A DNA stretch of 64,000 nt, taken from Erysipelotrichaceae bacterium (GTDB lineage Bacteria; Bacillota_I; Bacilli_A; RFN20; CAG-826). Below the pieces are notes generated by a model. The model worked only from the letters and a program-made list of their open reading frames with translations, was not told the DNA's origin and searched no databases. Within the stretch, counting starts at the first letter, position 1. The number at the start of each line of letters is the position of its first letter. The translations under genes and the position numbers were made by a program. Shown one piece after another: positions 25,202 to 38,646 of the stretch. Where the stretch lies: NCBI GenBank assembly GCA_015058945.1, contig SVBF01000014.1, positions 1 to 64,000 on the forward strand. The letters are read 5' to 3'.

Positions 25202-28200
25202 ATGAAAGAACGTTTTGCCCCGATTACGCCCGAAGAGCTTGGCATTTATCTGTCGTGCCAGACTCCGACTCTTGCCTATAACCTTCCTTTACTGATTCCC
25301 CTAGGAAAGAAGGCCGACGGCGCTTTGGTCAAAAAAGCGTTGGAGGAAATCTTGGCCGCGCACCCTGCGTTAAACGTCCGCTTTTCCTTAAACCAAGGCG
25401 ACATCGTGAAGTCGATCGTTCCCACCCCGTTAGCCTATGAGGAAAAGAAAGTCGGCGCCTTCGATAAAGAGGCGTTGGTCCGTCCCTTCGCCTTATTGGA
25501 TTCCCCGTTATACCGCACCGAGCTCATCCATGCGGAGGATGGCGATTATCTCTTCGCCGACTTCCATCACATCATCATGGACGGCTTCTCCCTCACGATG
25601 TTCCTTCGTGAGTTCGCGGACGCCTTAGGAGGCAAAAAACCCGAGGCGGAATCCTTCGATAGCCTCGATGACGCGATGAACAAGAAGGCCAAGCGCGAAG
25701 ACGAGGCTTCCTTCTTTGCGGACAAAGCCTATTTCCAAAACCTTTTCGGCGCGATCGACGTCGACTCTTCCTTAACCCTAGACAAACAAGACCCCGAACC
25801 GAGCTATGCCAAGATTCGCGTCGAACTAAAAGAGCTTAAGGACAAGGACGTCGCCGCCTCGTTATCCAAATATGGTGTCCGTCGTTCCTCGTTCTTCCTC
25901 GGCGCCTTCGCGTTGGCCTTGGGTCAGGCGACCTTCCTTGACGAAGCCTTCTTCCTCACCGTTAATAACGGCCGCGAGGAAAGGGCCAAACGTTCCTATG
26001 GGATGTACGTCAAGACAATCCCGATGTACGTGAATGGCCTAGCGGAGGGCAAGATCTCCGCCTTCCTCAAAGGCGTGGACGAACAACAACGCGATTCCAT
26101 CGCCCATTCGGCCTATTCCTATTCCGATTTGGTCGCGGATTGCTCCGTCTCCTCGGAGATGCTCTTCTCTTATCAAGGCGACTATTACTACCATCTGCCG
26201 TTGCTTGGCAAAGATACCGACGTCGAGGTCATCAAGACCAAAGACGGCAAAGAGAAACTCGCGGTCGAGTTATTCCGTCGCGACGGCGCTTTCTTCGCCG
26301 ACGTGGAATACCGCAGCGACCTCTATGAAGAAGACACGGTCCGTTCCTTCCTTCACCGCCTCGAGCATTTTGCCTTGAACCTCGCGAAGAAAGAGAACCT
26401 CGAGGACATCGACCCCTGCGATGAGGAAGACCGTCGCATCGTCTCTTCCTTCAACGACAAAGATTTATCCGGCTACGACCTCGACCACGATTTCGTCGAC
26501 GATATCCGCGCCCACATCGCCGCTAATCCGGAGAAAGAGGCGGTGATTTGTGGTAACGACCGCATCACCTATGGCGAACTTGGAAAGCTATCCGACGCCC
26601 TCGCGGATTATCTCCTCTCCTTCGGCGTAAAGAAGGACGAGGTGGTTTCAATCCTCATCGGCCGTTCCGTCTACATGGCCATCGCCCCCTTAGGCGTGCT
26701 TAAGTCCGGCGCGGCCTATCAGCCCCTCGACCCGAATTATCCCGACGAGCGCCTCGCCTTCATGATGGAGGACGCCTCGGCGAAACTTCTCATCTGCGAA
26801 CGCGGCTTGGAGGCGCGCGTCCCTTCTTACCATGGGCCGATCCTCTTCACGGACGAGATTCCGGGGCTGCCGCATCTCGGATTAGAGCAGCCCAAACCGG
26901 ACGGTCATGACCTTTACATCATGCTTTATACCTCCGGCTCCACCGGCAAGCCCAAAGGCGTCCAGCTCGAGCGTCATAACATCTCCGCTTTCGTGCAATG
27001 GCAAAGGAAATTCTACGAAATCGACGCAGATTCCCGCTTCTTTGCCTATGCATCCTTCGGCTTCGACGCGAACATGTTCGACCTTTATGGCGCGTTGACC
27101 AACGGCTTGCCTCTCTACGTCATCGACGAAGAGATGCGCCTCGATTTGAAACGCCTCAACGAATATTACGAGAAAAACGGGTTGACCCATGGCCTCATGA
27201 CCACGCAGGTCGGTCGTCAGTTCGTGGAAGATTACGAGAACCATAGCCTCCGTTACCTCACCGTCGGCGGCGAGAAACTCGTCCCCGTGGCCCCGCCGAA
27301 GAACTATCGTCTCATCAACGGCTATGGCCCGACCGAATGCACGATCGTCATCACCTGCTTCAGGGTGGAGAAGGACTATTACCGCGTCCCCATCGGACAA
27401 GGCTTCCCCATCAACCACCTCTATGTCCTCGACAAGAAGATGCGCCCTCTTCCCTATGGGGTGCCTGGCTTTCTCTATTGCGCGGGCCCTCAGGTCGCCC
27501 GTGGCTATCTCAACCGTCCCGAGGAGAACAAAAAGGCGTTTTTGGAGAACCCCTTCGAAGGCGGTCTCTTCCAAAAGATGTATTTCACCGGCGACGTGGT
27601 CCGCTTCCTCAAAGACGGCACGGTCGACTTCATCGGCCGTAAGGACGGCCAGGTCAAGATCCGTGGCTTCCGCATCGAGATGAGCGAAGTCGAACGCGTC
27701 ATTCGCGACTTTCCGTCAGTGAAAGACGCGACCGTGAACGCCTACCCTGCCTCTAGCGGCGGTTCGTTCCTCGTCGGTTACGTCGTCGCGGACGAGAAAC
27801 TCGACCTCGACGCGATCAAGGCCTTCATCGGCGAACGCAAACCCTATTACATGATCCCCGAGGTCATGATGCAGATCGACAAGATCCCCCTCAACCAAAA
27901 CAGCAAAGTCAATAAGCGCGCCCTCCCTCTTCCTAAACGCGACGAGAAGGAAGTGGTGCCTCCCGCGAACGAGACGGAGGCCAACTTGCTCAAGGTGGCC
28001 CAGAAAGTCCTCGGCTATGATGACGTCAGCGTCACCCTCGACCTCTTCGAAGCCGGACTCACCTCCATCTCCTCCATCAAGTTCATGACCCTCGCCTCCG
28101 AGGTGCTCGGCATCGACCTATCGACCTCGACCTTGAAGGAGAACGCCACGATCCGTGCCCTTGTCGCTATGTCCGGCGAGAAGGAAGAGGCGGTGGACGA

Positions 28201-31200
28201 AGACCGCTCCGACTATCCGTTAACGATGACCCAGAAGGGCATCTACGTCGAATGCGTGAGTCATCCTTCCTCCACGGTCTATAACATCCCCTTGCTCTAT
28301 CGCCTCGACCCCAAAGTCGATCTTGGCCGCTTAGTCGAAGCGGTGAAAGAGGCCATCGACGCGCATCCCTATCTCAAGGGCCATTTGATGATCGATGGTA
28401 GCGGCGACCCGCGCATGGTGCCTTGCCGTGAGGACAAGGCGAACGTCGAAGTGGTGGACCTCGCCTTGCCCGAGCCCTTCACCTTAAGGCCCTACGATTT
28501 GATGAAGGGGCCCTTCTATCAAGCCCGTATTTATCGCGCGAAGGACGCGAATTATCTCTTCCTCGACACCCACCACCTCGCAAGCGACGGCACCTCCCTC
28601 GCCGCGATGCTCGAGGACATCGAGGCTGCTTACCAAGGCCAGCCGATCCCCGCGGAAAAGCGCGACGGTTTTGCCGTGGCTTTGCTCGAGGAGAAAGAAG
28701 CGACTAAGGAAGCCAAAGAAAAGCAGAAGGCCTATTACGCCTCCTTCCTCGATGGCGTCGACTGCGTCTCCTTGCCGCGCAAGGAATACGATTTGCCTAA
28801 GGAGGAAAAGCCCCTTGAGGCGGACCATGACCTCCGCGTCGACAAAGCCAAAGTCCATGCCTTCCTTAAGGCAAACGGGTTGAACCTCAACGGCTTCTTC
28901 ACCTCGGTCTTCGCGATGGCCTTGGCCAAATGGGACGGCAACGAGGACGCCTTGTTCACCTCCATTTATTCCGGACGTGACTCGTCCTTCACCGCCCGCA
29001 CGATGACCATGATGGTCAAGACGTTGCCGGTCTATGCGAAGATCGATCCGAAGGCGAAGGCGGTCGATTACGTCCGCGCGCTTTCGGAGCAGCTATACAA
29101 GAGCCAGTCCAACACCCTATATTCCTTCGCCGAGATCAGCCGTGACTTCGGCGTGAAAAGCGACGTCATGTTCGCCTATCAGGGCGACGGCTTCTTGCCC
29201 GACCATATCGGCGGCTACCCCGCGACGCTCATCCACCTTAATGGGGATGAAGTGAAGGCCCCCTTCTCCGTCGATTGCCTCGAAGGGGAAAAGGCGTTCC
29301 GTTTGCATTTCGAATACCCGTCCAACCTCTACCGCGAGGAGACGATGGTCTATTTCACCCGCCTCTTCGACAAAATCGCGATGGGATTGATCGATAACCG
29401 CGCCTTAGGCGAAATCGAGCTCATCGATGGTCTGACCGCGAAGGAGATGGACGTCTTTAACCAAACCGACCACCCGTTGTCCAAAGGCACCTATCTCGAC
29501 CTCTTTGAGGAAGAAGTCCGTAAGCATCCGGATAAACCGGCCATCGTCGGCATCGACGAGACGCTTTCCTATCGCGAGATGGATCGCCGTATGAACCAAG
29601 TCGCGAACGCCTTGGCCAAACTCGGCTTAGGCAAAGACGACAAAGTGGTCGTCATGGTCCCGCGCATCGCCAATGCCTACGTCGCTAGGGAAGGCGTGAT
29701 GCGTTCCGGTGCCTGCTTCGTCCCGGTCGACCCCGCCTATCCCGATGAGCGCGTCCTCTATATCAGTGAGGATTCTGAGGCGAAGGCGATCTTGTGCACC
29801 AAAGAGATCTATGAGCAGCGCAAGGCAACCTTCGGTGAGAAGCGCTTCCTCCTATTGGAAGACATCCTCGCGCAGGAAAGCGACGCGCCGTTTAAGGCGA
29901 AGATCGATGGCGACGCCTTGGCCTATTGCATCTACACCTCCGGCTCCACCGGCAAGCCCAAGGGCGTCATGATCGAGCACCATAGCTTGCTCAACCTCGT
30001 CTACAAATCCCCCAAGAACTACATCGCCGAGGAATACGCGGACATCTGCTCCGTGACGGCGTCTTTGGCCTCGCTTAGCTTCGACCTTTCCATTCAGGAG
30101 GAGTTCGTCCCGTTCGCCAACGGCATGACCACCATGGTCGCGAGCGAGGATGAGATCCTCAACCCCGTCATGCTCGCCAAGCGCATGAAGCAAAACAAGG
30201 TCGACATCATCACCACGACCCCCTCCTACGTGAATAACGTCCTCGACATTGAGGAAGTTATGGACGCCTTCCGCGATCTGAAGGTGCTCGACCTCGGCGC
30301 CGAAGCCTTACCCGCCTCGATGATCCAGAAGATGCGCGAGAAGGGCATGAATTGCTTCATCCAAAACGGCTATGGTCCCACGGAGGCGACCGTCTCCTGC
30401 ACCATGGACCGCGTCACGAGCGACCGCATCACCATCGGCTTTCCCGACGCGAACTTCAAGACCTACATCATCGACGCGGAACGTCATCGCCTGCCCTTTG
30501 GGGCGATCGGCGAGCTCCTCATCGGCGGCGAAGGCGTCGCCAGGGGCTACATCCACCGCGACGATTTGAACAAGGACAAGTTCATCGACTTCGAGGGTGT
30601 CTATTCGTATCGCTCTGGCGACCTCGCCCGCATCAATTACGACGGGCGCATCGAGTTCTTCGGCCGTAAGGACAACCAGGTCAAACTGCGCGGCTTACGC
30701 GTCGAACTCGACGAAATCGAGAACAATTTGCAGTCTTTTCCGGGCATTTCCCGCGCGGTCGTGGTTGTGAAGGAAACCAAGGAAGAAGGTCAGTTCTTGG
30801 TGGGTTACTACCTCTCCAAAGAGGAATTCCCCGCCTCCGCGATCAAGGAGCATCTGGCCAAGACTTTGACCCCATATATGATCCCGAAGGTGCTCATGCA
30901 TCTCGATTCCATCCCCATGACCAATAACGGCAAGGTCAACAAGAAGGCCTTGCCTGACCCCGTCCTCACCTCAAAGGAAGGGAAGAAGAAAGTCCGCCTG
31001 CCCCGTAACGAGACACAGCAGATCATCTTCGACATCTTCCGTCACGTCCTCGGCGTCGAGGAGCTTTCCATCGACGACGACTTCTTTGACCTCGGCGGCA
31101 CTTCCCTTAGCGCCTCCAAGGTCACGATGCTCGCGATGGGCAAAGGACTCAACATCTCTTATTCGGACGTCTTCGATAACCCGACCGTCATCGACTTGGC

Positions 31201-32425
31201 TTCTTTGGCTTTGAACCAAAGCCGTCCCGCCGAAGCGAAGGTCGAAATCGAGGAGACTTCCCCCAAGGGACTGGAACATAACGTTGTCTCGGAAGTCGAC
31301 GGCATCACCGAAGGCCTAACGACCTTTCATTCCATCTTGCTCACCGGCGCGACCGGCTTCCTTGGCACGCATATTCTCCACGAACTCTTGGAGCATAGCG
31401 AGGCCAAGGTCATCGCCTTGGTCCGCGGCGGCAAGGGCATCAGTGGGGCCGAGCGTCTTCGTGGCTTGCTCGAATACTATTTCGATAACCCCTACGAGGA
31501 GGAGATGGGTCAGCGCGTGCGCGTCATCGAATCCGACGTCACGAGCCCTAGCCTCGTCGAGGAACTCAAGGACGAGGACTTTGACCTCATCGTCAACTGC
31601 GCCGCGGTGGTGAAGCATTTCTCCAATAGCGACGCGATCGAGAAGGTGAATCTCGGCGGGGTGAAGAACCTCATCGAAGTCGCCTTGAAGCACGGTTCCC
31701 GCCTGGTTCAGGTCTCCACCCTTTCCGTCGCCGGCGAAAACGTCGACGGCAAGTTCCCCGCGGAGAAGCGCATCCACGAGAACGAGATTTATTTCGGGCA
31801 AGACGTGTCCAACAAATACATCAATTCCAAGATCAAGGCCGAGGAGGCGTTAATCGAAGCGGTCAACGAGCGTGGCTTAGACGGCAAAATCGTCCGCGTC
31901 GGCAACCTCATGGGCCGCGCGAGGGATGGCGAATTCCAGGTCAACTCCTCCACGAACAACTTCATGGCCACGATCCGCGCCTACAAGATGCTCGGCGTCT
32001 TCCCCGTCTCGGCGGCGGATGGCACGATCGACTTCTCGCCGATCGACGAGGTCGCGAAGACCATCTTGATCCTCGCCCGCACCTCGAAGAAGTACACCAT
32101 CTTCCACAGCGCGAACTCCCACGAGGTCGAACTCGGCGACGTCATCGCCGCGATGAACGGCTACGGCTATGCCATCGAGATGGTCGACGACGACACCTTC
32201 ATGAAGCGTCTAAACGCCTATATGGAGGACGAGAGCAAGCAGATGGACGTCTCCTGCCTCATCTCCTATAACTCCTCCGACGCGGTGAAGCGCGAATACA
32301 TCCTCTCGGACAACACCTTCACGATCAAGGCCCTCTATCGCCTCGGCTACAAGTGGCCGATCACCGACGAGAAATACCTCGACCGTTCGATCTTGTCCCT
32401 CTCGACCCTTGGCTTCTTTGAGTGA
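25202..32425 (+). CDS. Dimodular non-ribosomal peptide synthetase with terminal reductase (C-A-T-C-A-T-R)
   Basis: A 2407-aa synthetase. C1: HHIIMDG at 122-128, intact. A1: YTSGSTGKPKG near 576-586, INGYGPTE motif. T1: GLTSIS with phosphopantetheine Ser955. C2: HHLASDG at 1124-1130, intact. A2: YTSGSTGKPKG near 1578, NGYGPTE. T2: GGTSL with Ser1968. R: NAD(P)-binding GATGFLG at 2049-2055, and catalytic Tyr2206/Lys2210 in YINSK. The starter C domain suggests N-acylation of the first residue. Reductive release gives a dipeptide aldehyde, which can cyclise to a pyrazinone. By hand alignment the pocket residues read about DAFLLVGIV (A1) and DLQTDGGVS (A2): both keep Asp235, and A1 looks hydrophobic. 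No phosphopantetheinyl transferase is in the window. Confidence 0.95.
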   Translation: MKERFAPITPEELGIYLSCQTPTLAYNLPLLIPLGKKADGALVKKALEEILAAHPALNVRFSLNQGDIVKSIVPTPLAYEEKKVGAFDKEALVRPFALLDSPLYRTELIHAEDGDYLFADFHHIIMDGFSLTMFLREFADALGGKKPEAESFDSLDDAMNKKAKREDEASFFADKAYFQNLFGAIDVDSSLTLDKQDPEPSYAKIRVELKELKDKDVAASLSKYGVRRSSFFLGAFALALGQATFLDEAFFLTVNNGREERAKRSYGMYVKTIPMYVNGLAEGKISAFLKGVDEQQRDSIAHSAYSYSDLVADCSVSSEMLFSYQGDYYYHLPLLGKDTDVEVIKTKDGKEKLAVELFRRDGAFFADVEYRSDLYEEDTVRSFLHRLEHFALNLAKKENLEDIDPCDEEDRRIVSSFNDKDLSGYDLDHDFVDDIRAHIAANPEKEAVICGNDRITYGELGKLSDALADYLLSFGVKKDEVVSILIGRSVYMAIAPLGVLKSGAAYQPLDPNYPDERLAFMMEDASAKLLICERGLEARVPSYHGPILFTDEIPGLPHLGLEQPKPDGHDLYIMLYTSGSTGKPKGVQLERHNISAFVQWQRKFYEIDADSRFFAYASFGFDANMFDLYGALTNGLPLYVIDEEMRLDLKRLNEYYEKNGLTHGLMTTQVGRQFVEDYENHSLRYLTVGGEKLVPVAPPKNYRLINGYGPTECTIVITCFRVEKDYYRVPIGQGFPINHLYVLDKKMRPLPYGVPGFLYCAGPQVARGYLNRPEENKKAFLENPFEGGLFQKMYFTGDVVRFLKDGTVDFIGRKDGQVKIRGFRIEMSEVERVIRDFPSVKDATVNAYPASSGGSFLVGYVVADEKLDLDAIKAFIGERKPYYMIPEVMMQIDKIPLNQNSKVNKRALPLPKRDEKEVVPPANETEANLLKVAQKVLGYDDVSVTLDLFEAGLTSISSIKFMTLASEVLGIDLSTSTLKENATIRALVAMSGEKEEAVDEDRSDYPLTMTQKGIYVECVSHPSSTVYNIPLLYRLDPKVDLGRLVEAVKEAIDAHPYLKGHLMIDGSGDPRMVPCREDKANVEVVDLALPEPFTLRPYDLMKGPFYQARIYRAKDANYLFLDTHHLASDGTSLAAMLEDIEAAYQGQPIPAEKRDGFAVALLEEKEATKEAKEKQKAYYASFLDGVDCVSLPRKEYDLPKEEKPLEADHDLRVDKAKVHAFLKANGLNLNGFFTSVFAMALAKWDGNEDALFTSIYSGRDSSFTARTMTMMVKTLPVYAKIDPKAKAVDYVRALSEQLYKSQSNTLYSFAEISRDFGVKSDVMFAYQGDGFLPDHIGGYPATLIHLNGDEVKAPFSVDCLEGEKAFRLHFEYPSNLYREETMVYFTRLFDKIAMGLIDNRALGEIELIDGLTAKEMDVFNQTDHPLSKGTYLDLFEEEVRKHPDKPAIVGIDETLSYREMDRRMNQVANALAKLGLGKDDKVVVMVPRIANAYVAREGVMRSGACFVPVDPAYPDERVLYISEDSEAKAILCTKEIYEQRKATFGEKRFLLLEDILAQESDAPFKAKIDGDALAYCIYTSGSTGKPKGVMIEHHSLLNLVYKSPKNYIAEEYADICSVTASLASLSFDLSIQEEFVPFANGMTTMVASEDEILNPVMLAKRMKQNKVDIITTTPSYVNNVLDIEEVMDAFRDLKVLDLGAEALPASMIQKMREKGMNCFIQNGYGPTEATVSCTMDRVTSDRITIGFPDANFKTYIIDAERHRLPFGAIGELLIGGEGVARGYIHRDDLNKDKFIDFEGVYSYRSGDLARINYDGRIEFFGRKDNQVKLRGLRVELDEIENNLQSFPGISRAVVVVKETKEEGQFLVGYYLSKEEFPASAIKEHLAKTLTPYMIPKVLMHLDSIPMTNNGKVNKKALPDPVLTSKEGKKKVRLPRNETQQIIFDIFRHVLGVEELSIDDDFFDLGGTSLSASKVTMLAMGKGLNISYSDVFDNPTVIDLASLALNQSRPAEAKVEIEETSPKGLEHNVVSEVDGITEGLTTFHSILLTGATGFLGTHILHELLEHSEAKVIALVRGGKGISGAERLRGLLEYYFDNPYEEEMGQRVRVIESDVTSPSLVEELKDEDFDLIVNCAAVVKHFSNSDAIEKVNLGGVKNLIEVALKHGSRLVQVSTLSVAGENVDGKFPAEKRIHENEIYFGQDVSNKYINSKIKAEEALIEAVNERGLDGKIVRVGNLMGRARDGEFQVNSSTNNFMATIRAYKMLGVFPVSAADGTIDFSPIDEVAKTILILARTSKKYTIFHSANSHEVELGDVIAAMNGYGYAIEMVDDDTFMKRLNAYMEDESKQMDVSCLISYNSSDAVKREYILSDNTFTIKALYRLGYKWPITDEKYLDRSILSLSTLGFFE

Positions 32426-32433
32426 GGTGAACC

Positions 32434-34236
32434 ATGAAAATCACGTATACCCGTAACGACAGAATCATCCGTCGCAAGTTCTACCAATACCTCATCCCGA
32501 CGGTGTTGATGGTTTTGGCGATGCAATTCGGTTCGCTCGCCGACTCGATCGTGGTCGGTCAGTTCTTGGGCGACCAAGCCCTCACCGCCTCCTCCCTCGC
32601 CTTGCCCGTCGTCTTCTTGGTCCAAATCCCCGCGATGATGATCGGGGGCGGTTCGGCGATCGTCGGGGCGAACTTACTCGGCAAACGCCTCGTCGACGAC
32701 GCCTCGAAGGTCTTCAAGTTATCGCTCTTCCTCGCCTTTACGATGAGTTTGGTGTTCGTGCCGCTTGGCATCTTCCTCTCCGAGCCCGTCGCGCGACTCT
32801 TCGCCGGCAATTTCCCCGACCTCATCCCGATGGTCTACCAATACATGCTCATCTACGCCTGCCAATCGCCAATCATCGCGGTGGGCATCGTGGTGGCGTA
32901 TTTCCTCCCTTCAGACAATAGCCCGAACCTCGGCGCCGCCTTCTTTGTCATTGGCAACGTCGTTCATTTGGCCTTCGAGATCATGCTCTGCCTCATCCTC
33001 GACCCGAGCGTCGCGATGTATGGCGCAGCCGCGAGCACGGGCATCGGCATGATCGCCGGCATGGTCGTCTTGATTCCCTATGCGCGTTCGAAGCGTCGCA
33101 TGGTCAATTTCAAGACGCCGCTACAGGGTGGGTTCCACTTCACGAAGGATTTGCTCCGTGCCGGGAGCGCGACGGGGGCGCAGACTGCGTTGCTGGCTTT
33201 ATTCACCGTGGTCTTGAACCTTGCCGCGACGGCTTATCTCACCGAGGCCGAGCTGCCGGTATATGCGATGCTGACGAATTTCTCGTTCGTGATCGATCTC
33301 TTCCTCCTGGGCATCTTGCAGATCATGCCTTCCGTCGTCTCCTCGCTTTATGGCGAGAAGGACTATTTCGGCGTGAAGTCGATCTGCCGTCGCGTGTTCA
33401 CTTTGGCGATGATCGTGACCGCCTTGCTGACGGCCATATCGATCATCTATCCCCAACTCTTCTTCTTCATCTTTGGCGTGAACCTCGATAGCGCGAAAGG
33501 CGGGGCGAACGATCCGTTGCTCGTCATTCGCACCTATTGTGTCAGTTTCCTCTTCTACGCGGTCAACAAATATTTTGTCTTCTATTACCCCTCCATCATG
33601 GTCAATGCGCCGGCGGTTGTCTCCAACGTCGTCCGCATCGGCCTAGCGGGACCTTTATCCGCCTACTTGCTCATGATGAGCCTTGGCGTCATCGGCTATG
33701 CCTACTCCGCCATCATCATGGAGGTCGTCGCGATTGTCGGTGCGTTCCTTGCGGTCTTCATCGGCAAAAAGACCAAGAAACTATCCGGTAACGGAATCCT
33801 GTTGCTGCCGAAAGAAGAGAAAGTCGCCGGTTACTTGGATATCTCCATCCCCGCCGAGAAGGCGGAAATCTCAAAAGTGGTGGAGGAATTGCAGGATTAT
33901 GCGGAGAAAAACTCTGGCGACAAGAAGGCCGCGGCCATGCTCGCTTTGGCCACGGAGGAAGTCCTCGACAACACGATAGCCTATGGTTACCGTCATAAGA
34001 TCGGGGCGCGTTACATCGACATCAACCTCACCACCAAGGAGGATGCCTTGCTCGTCCACATCCGCGACGACGGGCTCAACTTCGATCCGACCTCATTTGT
34101 GGCAAGCGACGACGAGGAGATGCGCTTCCACGGCATCGAGGTCGTGCGCAAGGTCGCGAGCGAATTCCGCTACTTGCGCGTTCTGAACATGAACAACACA
34201 ATTATGGAGATCACTACTTCAAAACGAGGAGCATAG
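32434..34236 (+). CDS. MATE-family exporter fused to an RsbW-like ATPase domain
   Basis: A 600-aa protein eight bases behind the NRPS, led by GAGGTG. Residues 1-445 are a twelve-helix MATE transporter (LADSIVVGQFLGDQALTA near the start, GGGSAIVGANLLG), a family that exports small molecules against Na+ or H+. Residues 460-600 are a GHKL/HATPase domain of the anti-sigma kinase type: N-box EEVLDNTIAYGY with the Mg-binding Asn near 512, and G1 box IRDDGLNFDP near 541-550. The fusion would place a Ser/Thr protein kinase or anti-sigma-like switch on the cytoplasmic face of the exporter. The STAS and phosphatase genes that follow are its natural partners. Confidence 0.92.
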   Translation: MKITYTRNDRIIRRKFYQYLIPTVLMVLAMQFGSLADSIVVGQFLGDQALTASSLALPVVFLVQIPAMMIGGGSAIVGANLLGKRLVDDASKVFKLSLFLAFTMSLVFVPLGIFLSEPVARLFAGNFPDLIPMVYQYMLIYACQSPIIAVGIVVAYFLPSDNSPNLGAAFFVIGNVVHLAFEIMLCLILDPSVAMYGAAASTGIGMIAGMVVLIPYARSKRRMVNFKTPLQGGFHFTKDLLRAGSATGAQTALLALFTVVLNLAATAYLTEAELPVYAMLTNFSFVIDLFLLGILQIMPSVVSSLYGEKDYFGVKSICRRVFTLAMIVTALLTAISIIYPQLFFFIFGVNLDSAKGGANDPLLVIRTYCVSFLFYAVNKYFVFYYPSIMVNAPAVVSNVVRIGLAGPLSAYLLMMSLGVIGYAYSAIIMEVVAIVGAFLAVFIGKKTKKLSGNGILLLPKEEKVAGYLDISIPAEKAEISKVVEELQDYAEKNSGDKKAAAMLALATEEVLDNTIAYGYRHKIGARYIDINLTTKEDALLVHIRDDGLNFDPTSFVASDDEEMRFHGIEVVRKVASEFRYLRVLNMNNTIMEITTSKRGA

Positions 34237-34240
34237 ACAT

Positions 34241-34534
34241 ATGGAAATCGTCAAAAACAAAGAAGGCGCGACCCTCTTGGTCGCCTTGAAGGGAAGGCTC
34301 GACACCAACACCTCCCCGGAACTCGAGGCCTCTTTGGAGAAAGAGGAGGGCTTCACCGATGTCCGCTTCGACTTCGGTCAGCTCGAATACCTTTCCTCCT
34401 CCGGCCTCCGTTTGCTCTTCTCCTGCCGTAAGAAACTCGGTGGCGCCGAACACGTCATCGTCGAAAACGCGAATGAGGTAGTGCGAGAGATCTTCCGCGT
34501 CACGGGATTCGATCGCCAGATCACCCTGAAATGA
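34241..34534 (+). CDS. STAS-domain protein (RsbV/SpoIIAA-like antagonist)
   Basis: A 97-aa single STAS domain. The conserved loop LEYLSSSGLRLL (Ser52-54) carries the Ser normally phosphorylated by an RsbW-type kinase and dephosphorylated by an RsbU-type phosphatase. GAGGAG precedes ATG. It lies four bases after the MATE-ATPase fusion, and its stop overlaps the next start (ATGA). In partner switching the unphosphorylated form binds the kinase domain, here the one attached to the transporter. Confidence 0.92.
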   Translation: MEIVKNKEGATLLVALKGRLDTNTSPELEASLEKEEGFTDVRFDFGQLEYLSSSGLRLLFSCRKKLGGAEHVIVENANEVVREIFRVTGFDRQITLK

Positions 34535-36585
34535 AAAAGAACCGACGCGTCAGCTTATCGATTGCGATTCTCGTCCCGACCATTCTGGCTTTCGTTTTAA
34601 GCCTTGGCGGGATTTACGCCGGCGCGTATTTCGTCTTGCAGGACGCGGCCTTCCAAATCGCCAGGGACGACGACGTCAAGGATTTAGTGACCGTCGATTC
34701 GCTTTATAGCGATGGCAATTACGGCCTGCTTGGCTATAGCCTCACCCCGATTTCTAAGGCGTATGAGGAAAACAAACCCGCCGCTCCCCTCACCCCCGGC
34801 AGCCCCGAGGAACGCGCCTACCGTACCCTCATCCAGACCGCGGCGTCTTCCTATTTGGCGAGCTCGACCTCGCGCATCTTGGAACGCTACGCCACGACCT
34901 TCATGGGCATTTTCTATGAGGACATGGCGGCCAACCGCATGGTTTTGGTCTGCTCTTCCAACAACGTAATCGACCCTTCGGAGCAGACTTCCCTCTACCT
35001 CGGTTCGTTCTTTGAGCGCAACGAATGGTTCGACGGGGATTCGTTCTATGGGGAGACCATCGTCGACAAAACCCTTGGGCGCATGTTCACTAGCGGCATC
35101 TTCCTCTGCGACGTCGCCCATCCGACTCTGGGCGGCCCGACTTACCGTTATTGGCTGATCCGCGAGACGAGCGAAAAAGATGTTTATTCCGCGACACCTG
35201 CGTTCACACGCTTGTTTGCCATCGTCGCGAGTGCGACGCTCGTCGTCTTAAGCGTCATCGCGTTCTTGCTTTTGTTCTTCCTGGTCATCCGTCCGACCAA
35301 GCGCCTTTCCGCTTCGGCGGGAGCTTATGTCGCCTCGGTTCAATCCGGCGTATTGGAAAGCAAGTTCGAACTATCGACGAGGCGTACCCGTAACGAGCTC
35401 ACCGAACTCAACGATTCCTTCTATTTCGCCCAAGAGGCCATCGCCGTCTATTCGGAGGAGATCCGTTCCTCCACGGCCTACAAGGAAAGGGTGAACGCCG
35501 AACTCGCCTTAGCGGAGCGCATCCAGGCCTCGATGGTGCCTTCCGAACCCTTATTCGGCGACGATTTCGAGATTCGTGGCCACATGCAGCCCGCGAAGGA
35601 AGTCGGCGGTGACCTCTATAACTATTTCCGCGTCGACGAGGACCATGTCGCCTTCTTCATCGGCGACGTTTCGGGCAAGGGCGTCCCCGCGGCCCTCTTC
35701 ATGGCGAAGACCAGCGCCGCATTGCGCCTTGGCCTAAAGGACCTCGACATCGATAACGTGAATAACTTCCTCTGTCAGAACAACGTCGAGAACTTCTTCG
35801 TCACTGCCTTCTTGGCCCTCCTTAACGTCAAGACGGGCGAGATGCGTTACGTCAACTGCGGCCACGAGCCGGTCTTCTATTACCATAACGGCGTCTATTC
35901 CGCCTTGCCCGAGAAGCCGAACTTCATGCTCGGCTGCCTCGATGATTTCAATTACGCCGCGGAAACCATCCGTCTCAAACCCGGCGACCGTCTCTTCCTC
36001 TATACCGACGGCATTTCCGAGGCGATGAACGAAGCGGGCGAACTCTATGGCAAAGAGCGCATCTTGGCCTGTTTGAACGCCCACGGTGGTTTGCCTAGCG
36101 GCGAAATCTTCCGCGCGATCGCAGAGGATGTCCGCCGCTTCGTCGGCAACGCCGAGCAAAGCGACGACGAATGCATGGTCGCGATGGATTTCGCTAGGGA
36201 GAAGGAATTGACCTTCTCCGCGGACCGGGAAGGGCTAGCCAATGTCCCTCCATTCGTGGACGCGTTCCTCGAGGGCAAAGGCGAAAGACTGATTTCGGAG
36301 CTGCAAATCGTCTTGGATGAACTCTGCTCCAACGCGGTCTTCTATTCGGACTCCGGCGATAAGCCCATTACGTTGATCTTACGCGACGACAAAGACGCGA
36401 TTCATTGCACCCTCATCGACCAAGGCACCCCCTTTAACCCGTTGACCGACAAACCGGAGAAGAAGGATGAGGACCAGCCCGGCGGCTTAGGCATCATCAC
36501 GGCGCTTGCGCTAACCGACGACATCTCCTATGAACGCCTCGATGACCGCAACGTCCTCTCCCTCGTCAAAAAGATCAAGTCCTAA
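34531..36585 (+). CDS. Membrane SpoIIE/RsbU-type Ser phosphatase with C-terminal ATPase domain
   Basis: A 684-aa protein. TM1 at residues 8-30, an extracytoplasmic sensor domain of about 200 residues, TM2 at about 228-252, and a HAMP-like linker with coiled coil to 330. A PP2C/SpoIIE domain follows at 340-548: GGDLYNY near 358, GDVSGKGVPAALF near 379, YTDGISEAMN near 490, and SDDECMVAM near 543 supply the metal-binding Asp residues. Residues 555-684 are an HATPase: N-box DELCSNAV, G1 IDQGTPFNP, G2 GGLGI. A phosphatase that also has a kinase-type ATPase domain could both set and reset the STAS protein. The outer domain is the presumed signal input. Confidence 0.9.
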   Translation: MKKNRRVSLSIAILVPTILAFVLSLGGIYAGAYFVLQDAAFQIARDDDVKDLVTVDSLYSDGNYGLLGYSLTPISKAYEENKPAAPLTPGSPEERAYRTLIQTAASSYLASSTSRILERYATTFMGIFYEDMAANRMVLVCSSNNVIDPSEQTSLYLGSFFERNEWFDGDSFYGETIVDKTLGRMFTSGIFLCDVAHPTLGGPTYRYWLIRETSEKDVYSATPAFTRLFAIVASATLVVLSVIAFLLLFFLVIRPTKRLSASAGAYVASVQSGVLESKFELSTRRTRNELTELNDSFYFAQEAIAVYSEEIRSSTAYKERVNAELALAERIQASMVPSEPLFGDDFEIRGHMQPAKEVGGDLYNYFRVDEDHVAFFIGDVSGKGVPAALFMAKTSAALRLGLKDLDIDNVNNFLCQNNVENFFVTAFLALLNVKTGEMRYVNCGHEPVFYYHNGVYSALPEKPNFMLGCLDDFNYAAETIRLKPGDRLFLYTDGISEAMNEAGELYGKERILACLNAHGGLPSGEIFRAIAEDVRRFVGNAEQSDDECMVAMDFAREKELTFSADREGLANVPPFVDAFLEGKGERLISELQIVLDELCSNAVFYSDSGDKPITLILRDDKDAIHCTLIDQGTPFNPLTDKPEKKDEDQPGGLGIITALALTDDISYERLDDRNVLSLVKKIKS

Positions 36586-36594
36586 GAAATCGTT

Positions 36595-38121
36595 ATGAAA
36601 AACCATTTGACCCTTACCTTACTCTGCGGCGCACTTCTTGCTTCCTGCGGCGCGCCGAGCGTTTCGTCATCCTCGGAAACCAATTCGTCCGAATCTCTTT
36701 CTAGCGAAGGAACGTCCTCCGTTGCCTCGTCTAGCTCTAGTTCAAAACCTGCCGAGACTTCCTCAAAGCCTGCGGAATCCAGCAACCTCAATCCTTCCTC
36801 GGAGGAAAGTTCGATTCCCTCGCGACAAGAACTCGATCCCATGGGCGAACCGATGGTTGGACGTCAGTATTACCTGAACCATATCGGCGACGTTTACGGC
36901 GCCTGGCAAAAATACCGGGGGCGTGGCATTACGATCGCCGTCATCGACGTTGGATTCAATCCGGACCATGAGGATTTCTTCTACGCCGACGGGACGAGCA
37001 AAGTGTCCGACAAATCGGCCTCTTTCGTCACCACCGGAACTAAGACGTCGACGCTCATTGGGAAAGACAAGGTCGTCAACATGGGCGAATCCCATGGCAC
37101 GTTTTGCGCGGGCGTCGCGGCTGCGGCGGCCAATGGCAAAGGTGTGACCGGCGTCGCGCCGGAAGCGGGGCTATTGCTCCTAAAGACTGATCTCAAGCCT
37201 AGATCCATCGCCCAGGCGTTCCGTTACGCCGCGGATAATGGGGCCAGGGTCATAACCATCTCCATCGGTTCTTATTACACCTATGGCGGGGACTTAATTG
37301 ACGATGGCTCCGATTTAGGCACCGTGTTCAACGCGCCGGTCAAATACGCTTACGACAAAGGCGTCGCCGTGATCTCCGCGGGAGGCAACGGTGGGCTCGA
37401 TGGAATGCCGACGGAATACACGTTCCCCGGCTGCGTCGATCATGTCATCGGCGTGGGTGGGCTCGCCGCGAATAGTTCGACCGAGATCTGGACCGGCTCT
37501 TCATACAACTCCTCTTCGAAATTCCAATCCATCGACGTCTTCGCCCCGGCGGACATGATGTATGGCTGCTGCCATTACGATGGCAAGAAATACGATGGGG
37601 GATGGAACGGGACTTCCTTCGCTTCGCCCACCGTGGCGGGCATGGCCGCGCTGTATTTCGAGGCGTTCCCCACGAAGAAGGCCGCCGACTTCGAAAAGGC
37701 TTTGTTCGGCTCTTGCCATAAGATAACCACCTCATCCATCGCGACTGCAGATCAGCTTGGTTATGGACGCGTGGACGTCGGCAAATTGCTTTCCCTCTCT
37801 TCTTCCGGCAACGTCACCGCGAAGATCAAAGCGAATTGGAGTTCTGGCTATGCCTATGTTTGGAATTCGGTCACGGGCAACTCTTTGTCCGCGTGGCCAG
37901 GCAAGGCGTTGACCAAGTCCGGAAGCGTGTTCTCAGTGACAATCGATTCGGGCAAATACGATTCGGTCATCTTCACCCAAACAAAAGATGGGCCTCAAAC
38001 CGTTGACCTTTCAGTGAATAGCTTCCTCACCGGGAAGACATTGGATTTGACGTCGGCGGCGAAAGAGTGCAACGCCTTGGTCGGGGCATATAATGCTAAC
38101 GGGTCTTTAACTTTTGTGTGA
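36595..38121 (+). CDS. Subtilisin-like (S8) protease lipoprotein with starch-binding-like C-terminus
   Basis: A 508-aa protein. Lipobox LLASC (Cys about residue 19), a Ser-rich linker to about residue 75, then a subtilase domain: AVIDVGFNPDHEDFF (Asp about 118), GESHGTFCAGVAA (His about 167), oxyanion SAGGNGG near 263, and NGTSFASPTVAGMAALYF (Ser about 341). All three catalytic residues are present. The last ~105 residues (AYVWN, AWPGKALT, VIFTQTKDGPQTVDL) resemble the CBM26-like module of the amylase at 22228-24729. It follows the phosphatase gene by ten bases without a visible terminator, so it may be part of or regulated with the NRPS operon. Confidence 0.88.
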   Translation: MKNHLTLTLLCGALLASCGAPSVSSSSETNSSESLSSEGTSSVASSSSSSKPAETSSKPAESSNLNPSSEESSIPSRQELDPMGEPMVGRQYYLNHIGDVYGAWQKYRGRGITIAVIDVGFNPDHEDFFYADGTSKVSDKSASFVTTGTKTSTLIGKDKVVNMGESHGTFCAGVAAAAANGKGVTGVAPEAGLLLLKTDLKPRSIAQAFRYAADNGARVITISIGSYYTYGGDLIDDGSDLGTVFNAPVKYAYDKGVAVISAGGNGGLDGMPTEYTFPGCVDHVIGVGGLAANSSTEIWTGSSYNSSSKFQSIDVFAPADMMYGCCHYDGKKYDGGWNGTSFASPTVAGMAALYFEAFPTKKAADFEKALFGSCHKITTSSIATADQLGYGRVDVGKLLSLSSSGNVTAKIKANWSSGYAYVWNSVTGNSLSAWPGKALTKSGSVFSVTIDSGKYDSVIFTQTKDGPQTVDLSVNSFLTGKTLDLTSAAKECNALVGAYNANGSLTFV

Positions 38122-38646
38122 ATGGATATCGAAAAAGCGCTGAAGAAGGCGATTAGAAGCGGCGACAAAGAGGAAACGCGTCGCCAGTTTGAACGTTTTT
38201 ATCAGGAAAACGTGAAGCTGGTGTATCGAGTATTGATTGACCGTTTCGGAAAAGTAGACGGCATCGATGACGACGTTCAAGAATCTTTCGTCGTTTTGAT
38301 GGGCTCTCCGGAACAACTCCTTGCCGTTGACCGCCTTCAGGACTACCTAATCACCACGGCGAAGCGCATTGCGCAAAGACGGATCTATGGGTTAAAAGTT
38401 TCTACCGAGGAAGTCGAGAATATTCCCGCGCCCGAACTCTTGATCCCGTCAGCGATTTCCGAGGCCGATTTTTTCCATCGCATGGAGCAAAGCCTCGGCC
38501 ATCCGGATTATGAGATCGTCGTCCTTCGCTTTGCCTATGGCTTTACGGAGAAAGAAATATCAAAGAGACTAGGAATAGGCGAAGACGCGGTGCATTACCG
38601 TTGCAAAAAAGGGATGGCGAAATTGCGAAAGGAGATTTCTCGATGA
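38122..38646 (+). CDS. ECF-type sigma-70 family factor
   Basis: A 174-aa protein. Region 2 is diverged: FERFYQENVKLVYRVLIDRF followed by VDGIDDDVQESFVVLM. Region 4 HTH is clear at residues 130-165: YEIVVLRFAYGFTEKEISKRLGIGEDAVHYRCKKGMAKLR. It begins directly after the stop of the protease gene with no Shine-Dalgarno and overlaps the next gene by ATGA. It is the classical two-gene pattern of an ECF sigma factor with its membrane anti-sigma factor. Its target promoters are not evident. Confidence 0.85.
   Translation: MDIEKALKKAIRSGDKEETRRQFERFYQENVKLVYRVLIDRFGKVDGIDDDVQESFVVLMGSPEQLLAVDRLQDYLITTAKRIAQRRIYGLKVSTEEVENIPAPELLIPSAISEADFFHRMEQSLGHPDYEIVVLRFAYGFTEKEISKRLGIGEDAVHYRCKKGMAKLRKEISR

Follow-up and report, generated by a model that had tools for sequence, protein, structure and literature searches.

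The window analysed here is a stretch of 64,000 nucleotides from an Erysipelotrichaceae bacterium and carries, at 32434..34236 (+), a gene for a 600-residue protein in which a MATE transporter is followed by a GHKL domain. The gene reads as a single open frame of 600 codons from ATG to TAG, without interruption; a GAGGTG ribosome-binding site precedes its start, and the stop of an NRPS gene (25202..32425, +) lies 8 nt upstream. On the other side, a gene for a 97-residue SpoIIAA/RsbV-like STAS protein (34241..34534, +) begins after a gap of 4 nt, and its last 4 nt are shared with the start of a gene for a 684-residue PP2C/SpoIIE phosphatase (34531..36585, +). Further downstream are a gene for a subtilisin-like protease that combines a CBM26 starch-binding module with a lipoprotein-like signal (36595-38121) and, directly after it, a weak ECF-like sigma gene of the sigma-70 family (38122-38646). 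The subtilase gene is not conserved beside the unit in relatives and was rejected as a member of it.

The first-pass annotation had described the gene as a MATE transporter with a C-terminal anti-sigma-type domain in one chain, and this architecture is borne out by Pfam matches that both exceed their cut-offs within one frame, MatE with 82.2 bits (cut-off 24.9) and HATPase_c_2 over residues 472–587 with 45.4 bits (cut-off 27.4). It had named a missed stop and start between the two parts, or absence of the fusion from all relatives, as the observations that would speak against it. No stop or restart between the MATE and GHKL halves was found in the frame 32434-34236, and the same two-domain order recurs as one ORF in 63 genes. 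As these full-length, single-ORF fusions are of similar length, with 19–41 residues between the MatE and GHKL matches, a sequencing error, an assembly join or a missed stop/start is ruled out.

The 63 fusions, found in many gut bacteria, are distributed over 61 loci in two lineages of Firmicutes. In the source genus the fusion was found in 13 of 31 genomes, some as contig-truncated pieces, and it is present in another genus of the same family at 34–36% identity as well as in four Lachnospiraceae-type MAGs at 32–34% identity. Within the Lachnospiraceae, matches at E 1e-30 were obtained in 19 of 299 genomes, almost all of them full-length, and counting full-length rows yielded at least 25 of 391 genomes for the Clostridia. 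A search of viral contigs returned no relative of the fusion. The open-access literature likewise gave no account of a MATE-GHKL fusion, which is weak evidence of novelty as most subscription papers are outside its coverage.

The transporter part comprises residues 1–446 (32434..33771, +) with 12 helices, as delineated by Pfam, alignment, AlphaFold2, profile and Foldseek analysis. Asp37 in TM1 is shared by 41 of the 43 fusions that were aligned. A profile built from five fusion proteins matched MATE structures over residues 14–436, the best being DinF-BH (5c6o, 4lz6) and PfMATE, and SpoIIAB over the C-terminal part. The full-length AlphaFold2 model, calculated with five alignment rows as input, reached a low mean pLDDT of 54.5 and is too weak to reveal how the two domains are oriented towards each other. 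It shows 12 membrane helices before residue 446, in agreement with the earlier placement of the GHKL domain after helix 12, and a Foldseek search with this low-confidence model retrieved MATE structures (PfMATE 3vvo, E 2.4e-10). Both the profile score above cut-off and the 12-helix fold assign the protein to the MATE family (2.A.66.1), and judged from its sequence it is most likely a secondary exporter. The 12-helix fold and the TM1 Asp are shared with the exporters of the DinF/PfMATE branch (TC 2.A.66). ClbM, the MATE exporter of the colibactin cluster, provides a parallel for such an exporter within an NRPS cluster. Unlike DinF, PfMATE and ClbM, the protein in the window carries a GHKL domain of about 145 residues past helix 12.

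This domain (HATPase_c_2 match at 33847..34194, +) was identified as SpoIIAB/RsbW-type by Pfam, profile and Foldseek analysis. It is predicted to be cytosolic, based on the even helix count and the basic residues just before it (KKTKK), consistent with positive-inside loops. For a five-sequence GHKL profile the best solved relatives were SpoIIAB structures (1tid, 1th8, 1til, 1l0o; E about 5e-5), and RsbW (6m36) also matched with an E value of 0.0014. The AlphaFold2 model of the GHKL domain alone, with a pLDDT of 67 and below 50 in the lid region, likewise gave SpoIIAB and RsbW as best Foldseek matches. Alignment located an N box (33958..33972, +) with E509 at the position of the catalytic base and N513 at that of the Mg-binding Asn (E509-xxx-N513), a G1 box DDGLNFDP (34066..34089, +; D545, G547, F550, P552) and a degenerate G2 or ATP-lid box (34123..34137, +), in which RFHGI replaces GGxG-I. 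The Mg-binding Asn and the DxGxxFDP box of the first-pass annotation are thus both present, as N513 and as the run from D545 to P552; the missing canonical G2 motif is a new observation relative to that annotation.

Across the family the motifs have been retained to different extents. The catalytic Glu position is retained in all 63 fused domains and the Arg preceding the G1 Asp, common to SpoIIAB and absent from the unfused set, in 59 of the 63; the G1 Asp is found in 55/63 and the Mg-binding Asn in 49/63, the latter missing in 14/63. A canonical GGxG lid was not found in a single fused domain (0/63), whereas the unfused GHKL domains of the same neighbourhoods, whether PP2C-linked, free or STAS-linked, have both the GGxG lid and the Asn in 25 of 25 cases. 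Judged by these motifs, each complete unit contains two GHKL domains of different kinds, a canonical kinase domain on or beside the phosphatase and a derived one attached to the transporter. At one locus (L094:5134-6897(-)) we observed a 588-residue MATE protein with a C-terminal domain no longer recognised by the GHKL profile, possibly an end stage of decay.

The designation anti-sigma-type ATPase needs to be qualified accordingly. Its first part stands, since the profile match, the nearest structures, the N box and the G1 box all place the domain in the SpoIIAB/RsbW class, from which it departs by lacking the glycine-rich G2 lid. The word ATPase may be too strong, as the loss of G2 in all 63 members and of the Asn in 14 casts doubt on hydrolysis or kinase activity for some members of the family at least. 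An ATPase powering transport was rejected on account of the SpoIIAB/RsbW class and the lid motif, whose degeneration in every fusion argues against a power-generating enzyme. These features, together with the associated STAS and PP2C genes in the same operon, support the earlier proposal of a regulatory rather than an energising domain.

The adjacent NRPS has 2407 residues and seven domains in the order C-A-T-C-A-T-R with a terminal reductase (Pfam Condensation, AMP-binding, PP-binding, NAD_binding_4). It is AusA-like, with an additional N-terminal condensation domain; with 1089.8 bits it remains below the cut-off of 2500 for the aureusimine NRPS equivalog (NCBIfam NF047350). Two modules and a terminal reductase also make up the domain layout of the BGC0001686 and ruminopeptin clusters. 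The NRPS thus resembles those of the gut N-acyl dipeptide aldehyde clusters (BGC0001686, ruminopeptin) and AusA in its two modules ending in a reductase, and together with the N-terminal condensation domain it matches the layout of a dipeptide-aldehyde cluster. NRPS clusters of gut bacteria are known to produce acylated dipeptide aldehydes (PMC8518294). Reductase-terminated clusters of this class are defined by an N-acyl dipeptide aldehyde or a pyrazinone as product, and the predicted product of the NRPS in the window is most likely of the N-acyl dipeptide aldehyde type. What sets the locus apart from BGC0001686, ruminopeptin and AusA, as described in searchable papers on dipeptide-aldehyde clusters, is a co-operonic partner-switch set with a GHKL-fused exporter, an arrangement that those papers do not describe.

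The two genes downstream of the fusion supply the remaining components of such a switch. The STAS protein, identified by Pfam STAS and NCBIfam ant_ant_sig, has Ser53 in the motif YLSSSGLR (codon 34397-34399, +), which by alignment to SpoIIAA/RsbV we take to be the phosphoacceptor; all 22 STAS proteins compared from fusion loci have this serine. The phosphatase scores with 155.8 bits to SpoIIE and 61.5 bits to HATPase_c_2, its C-terminal GHKL kinase domain has a canonical GGLGI lid, and by eye a hydrophobic segment is discernible at its N terminus. The PP2C metal-binding motifs are conserved across loci. Hence, with a GHKL domain, a STAS protein bearing the phosphoacceptor serine and a PP2C phosphatase encoded together, the partner-switching set is complete at the locus.

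The unit of NRPS, MATE-GHKL, STAS and PP2C-GHKL genes recurs within the genus and the family (L031, L033, L034, L037, L039), and at three further loci in contig-truncated form (L035, L040, L043); a single Clostridia genome (L131) has it too. At the genus and family loci the genes on either side of the unit are unrelated, and within it no conserved sigma factor, transcription factor or other regulator was found. Within about 9 kb of the 61 fusion loci, some of which lie on short contigs, an NRPS is encoded at 35, a STAS protein at 29 and a PP2C phosphatase at 30, and one of the three is the immediate neighbour of the fusion in 45 of 63 cases. The control consisted of 20 ordinary MATE loci, taken from among the matches of the same class-level search; these exhibited one lone adenylation-type match and one GHKL match. 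At least one of NRPS, STAS and PP2C was thus present at 53/61 fusion loci versus 0/20 ordinary MATE loci (Fisher p 7e-13), and within the genus a reductase-ended NRPS was found in 13/13 genomes with the fusion versus 3/18 of the others, 15 of which lack an NRPS (p 3e-6), although the shared ancestry of related genomes means that both p-values overstate the independence of the cases. Several fusions (e.g. L126-L130, L132) have neither STAS nor PP2C within about 9 kb.

This association bears on the possibility that the fusion is a chance or decaying product, in which read-through from the transporter gene extends into what is left of an anti-sigma gene, without any function. The loss of N-box and G1 residues in some members, such as the L094 tail, is what such decay would leave behind. 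Against it stand the number of full-length fusions (63, from two lineages), the conservation of their spacing and of the Glu, which is invariant, and the significant association with STAS, PP2C and NRPS genes; we regard this explanation as barely credible, since the conservation of the fusion already contradicts it.

Two further arrangements were observed at fusion loci. At L089:1751-4935(-) and L083:13039-16801(-), leader peptides that by eye are Nif11/NHLP-like, together with an ECF gene, lie near MATE-GHKL, PP2C and GHKL genes, which suggests a RiPP version of the same arrangement. At L139:12705-14333(-) and L140:10437-12038(+), a STAS domain, an APH-type kinase domain and HATPase_c_2 are joined in one chain near MATE-GHKL and PP2C; a shorter STAS-kinase-like protein is encoded on contig C17 of the genome of the window (G000).

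The gene set recalls the Bacillus systems SpoIIAB-SpoIIAA-SpoIIE and RsbW-RsbV-RsbU, which likewise combine a GHKL protein with N and G1 boxes, a STAS protein with a Ser and a PP2C/SpoIIE phosphatase. In contrast to these switches, one of the GHKL domains here lacks the canonical G2 lid and forms a single chain with a transporter, and the accompanying genes include no conserved sigma factor. Proteins with sigma-70 region 2 in the source genome were only RpoD and two ECF-like proteins, and a SigB/SigF-type sigma was not found in this assembly, which at 92% completeness makes the absence less than absolute. The other GHKL and STAS genes of the genome include a STAS and PP2C-GHKL pair beside a peptidase-type ABC exporter; such a peptide exporter adjoins PP2C and GHKL genes, with STAS, at L112 (G000:C5) and PP2C and GHKL genes at L221 (G003:C119), which places partner-switch genes next to another type of metabolite exporter.

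We also considered that the partner switch controls an ECF-like sigma, in the window the product of the weak gene at 38122-38646, with the MATE fusion being incidental. Its position downstream of the unit fits this, as do ECF genes near MATE-GHKL in L075, L083 and L089. Overall, however, ECF genes occur in only 4 of the 61 fusion loci, and tblastn found no homologue of the ECF-like gene beside the unit in 18 related loci; on these two results the gene was rejected as a conserved target. To our knowledge, GHKL anti-sigma factors are known for SigB/SigF-type rather than ECF sigmas, which we also count against this explanation, and we consider it highly unlikely.

The arrangement is best accounted for, with a probability that we put at roughly 0.55, by an exporter for the NRPS product whose transport is controlled by the partner switch through docking of the STAS protein on the fused GHKL domain. 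The PP2C-GHKL protein would determine how far the STAS protein is phosphorylated, with the GHKL half adding a phosphate to Ser53 and the PP2C half taking it off. Unphosphorylated STAS protein would then dock on the degenerate SpoIIAB-like GHKL domain at the cytosolic C terminus of the MATE protein and thereby switch the exporter, either opening or locking it. The exported substrate would most likely be what the neighbouring NRPS makes, a compound of the N-acyl dipeptide aldehyde type. The transporter would thus take the circuit position that in Bacillus is held by the sigma factor and its anti-sigma factor. Fusions with neither STAS nor PP2C nearby, such as L126-L130 and L132, count against this account. 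The data establish the architecture and the gene associations; docking, gating, substrate and direction of control are what we infer from them.

The signal could also run in the opposite direction, with the transporter acting as a sensor. The MATE domain would read flux or substrate, the fused GHKL domain would be a STAS kinase following transport, and STAS and PP2C would relay the export status elsewhere, for instance to NRPS synthesis or to a transcription factor. With the invariant Glu, and the Asn in 49 of 63 domains, some fused domains may retain kinase activity, and because E509 and N513 are intact in the window, its own fused GHKL domain could still be an active kinase, which counts against a role in docking only. 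Moreover, one genome of 76% completeness (G001) has NRPS, STAS and PP2C-GHKL genes together with no MATE-GHKL gene found, and in two others (G017 and G023) the NRPS and phosphatase genes do not share a contig with MATE-GHKL, making a second target or a sensor role possible. On the other hand, the GGxG lid is absent from every fused domain and a canonical GHKL domain is available on or beside the phosphatase, pointing to an output or docking role of the fused one, and the unit has no conserved transcription factor as recipient. On balance we hold the sensor role to be rather unlikely.

Alternatively, the fused domain might be a passive anchor, bringing STAS and PP2C-GHKL together at the membrane without gating the transporter. 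The erosion of its motifs in part of the family, including the L094 tail, would be compatible with this. The invariant Glu and the strongly conserved G1 residues rather suggest a specific interface, and the hydrophobic N-terminal segment of the phosphatase would make an additional anchor superfluous, so that we see only a small chance for a purely anchoring function.

The proposed control of the exporter by STAS docking has counterparts in systems in which a transporter is joined to a domain of the partner-switch type, namely SLC26/SulP transporters with their STAS domain and MlaFEDB with MlaB. Without the STAS protein MlaB, the Mla ABC transporter neither assembles nor functions properly (PMC7367683). 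In SLC26/SulP and Mla it is the STAS side that resides on the transporter, whereas here it is the GHKL side, accompanied by a separate STAS protein and a phosphatase. In the SiaABCD and HsbR-HsbA-HsbD systems of Pseudomonas aeruginosa, a STAS-type protein is the common substrate of a kinase and a phosphatase, and the output is not only a sigma factor. Their output is a diguanylate cyclase, a target not physically joined to a GHKL domain, in contrast to the transporter of the present locus. The apparently new element, as read from the sequence, is the joining of an exporter to the predicted output domain of a partner switch.

A comparable extension was found in a second transporter family. Two SDF-family (sodium:dicarboxylate) symporters at L083:10922-12514(-) and L095:14583-16166(+) have an extra N-terminal domain of about 120 residues, in which the EE motif is retained and which gives a score against the GHKL profile. 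We aligned 17 such N-terminal domains (L083, L095, L181-L195), leaving out true GHKL rows; in pairwise hhalign comparison the alignment matched the GHKL profile with an E value of 4e-13 and a probability of 97.9, and gave no match to a STAS profile. Among 299 Lachnospiraceae genomes, about 15 have homologues whose match begins in the N-terminal domain, but STAS or PP2C genes lie near only 3 of the 17 loci. Its sequence characterises the domain as GHKL-like and strongly degenerate, more decayed than the MATE-fused GHKL, and suggests that GHKL-type regulatory domains were joined to secondary transporters more than once. More tentatively, at a confidence that falls a little short of even, the two families may represent a previously undescribed class of partner-switch-controlled secondary transporters, in which a GHKL domain with a degenerate lid, C-terminal on MATE and, in a separate lineage, N-terminal on SDF proteins, would provide a phospho-regulated docking site for STAS and act on transport instead of transcription.

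Textbook partner switches regulate sigma factors, and few non-transcriptional targets are known. If the proposed control holds, bacteria may switch the export of NRPS-type compounds directly, and a cassette with its own transporter target would make direct post-translational control of natural-product export testable. The MATE-GHKL gene could serve as a marker for reductase-ended NRPS clusters of gut bacteria, given an NRPS near 35 of 61 loci, and the combination of an invariant Glu with a lost lid motif would offer a natural test case for GHKL pseudo-kinases as docking modules.
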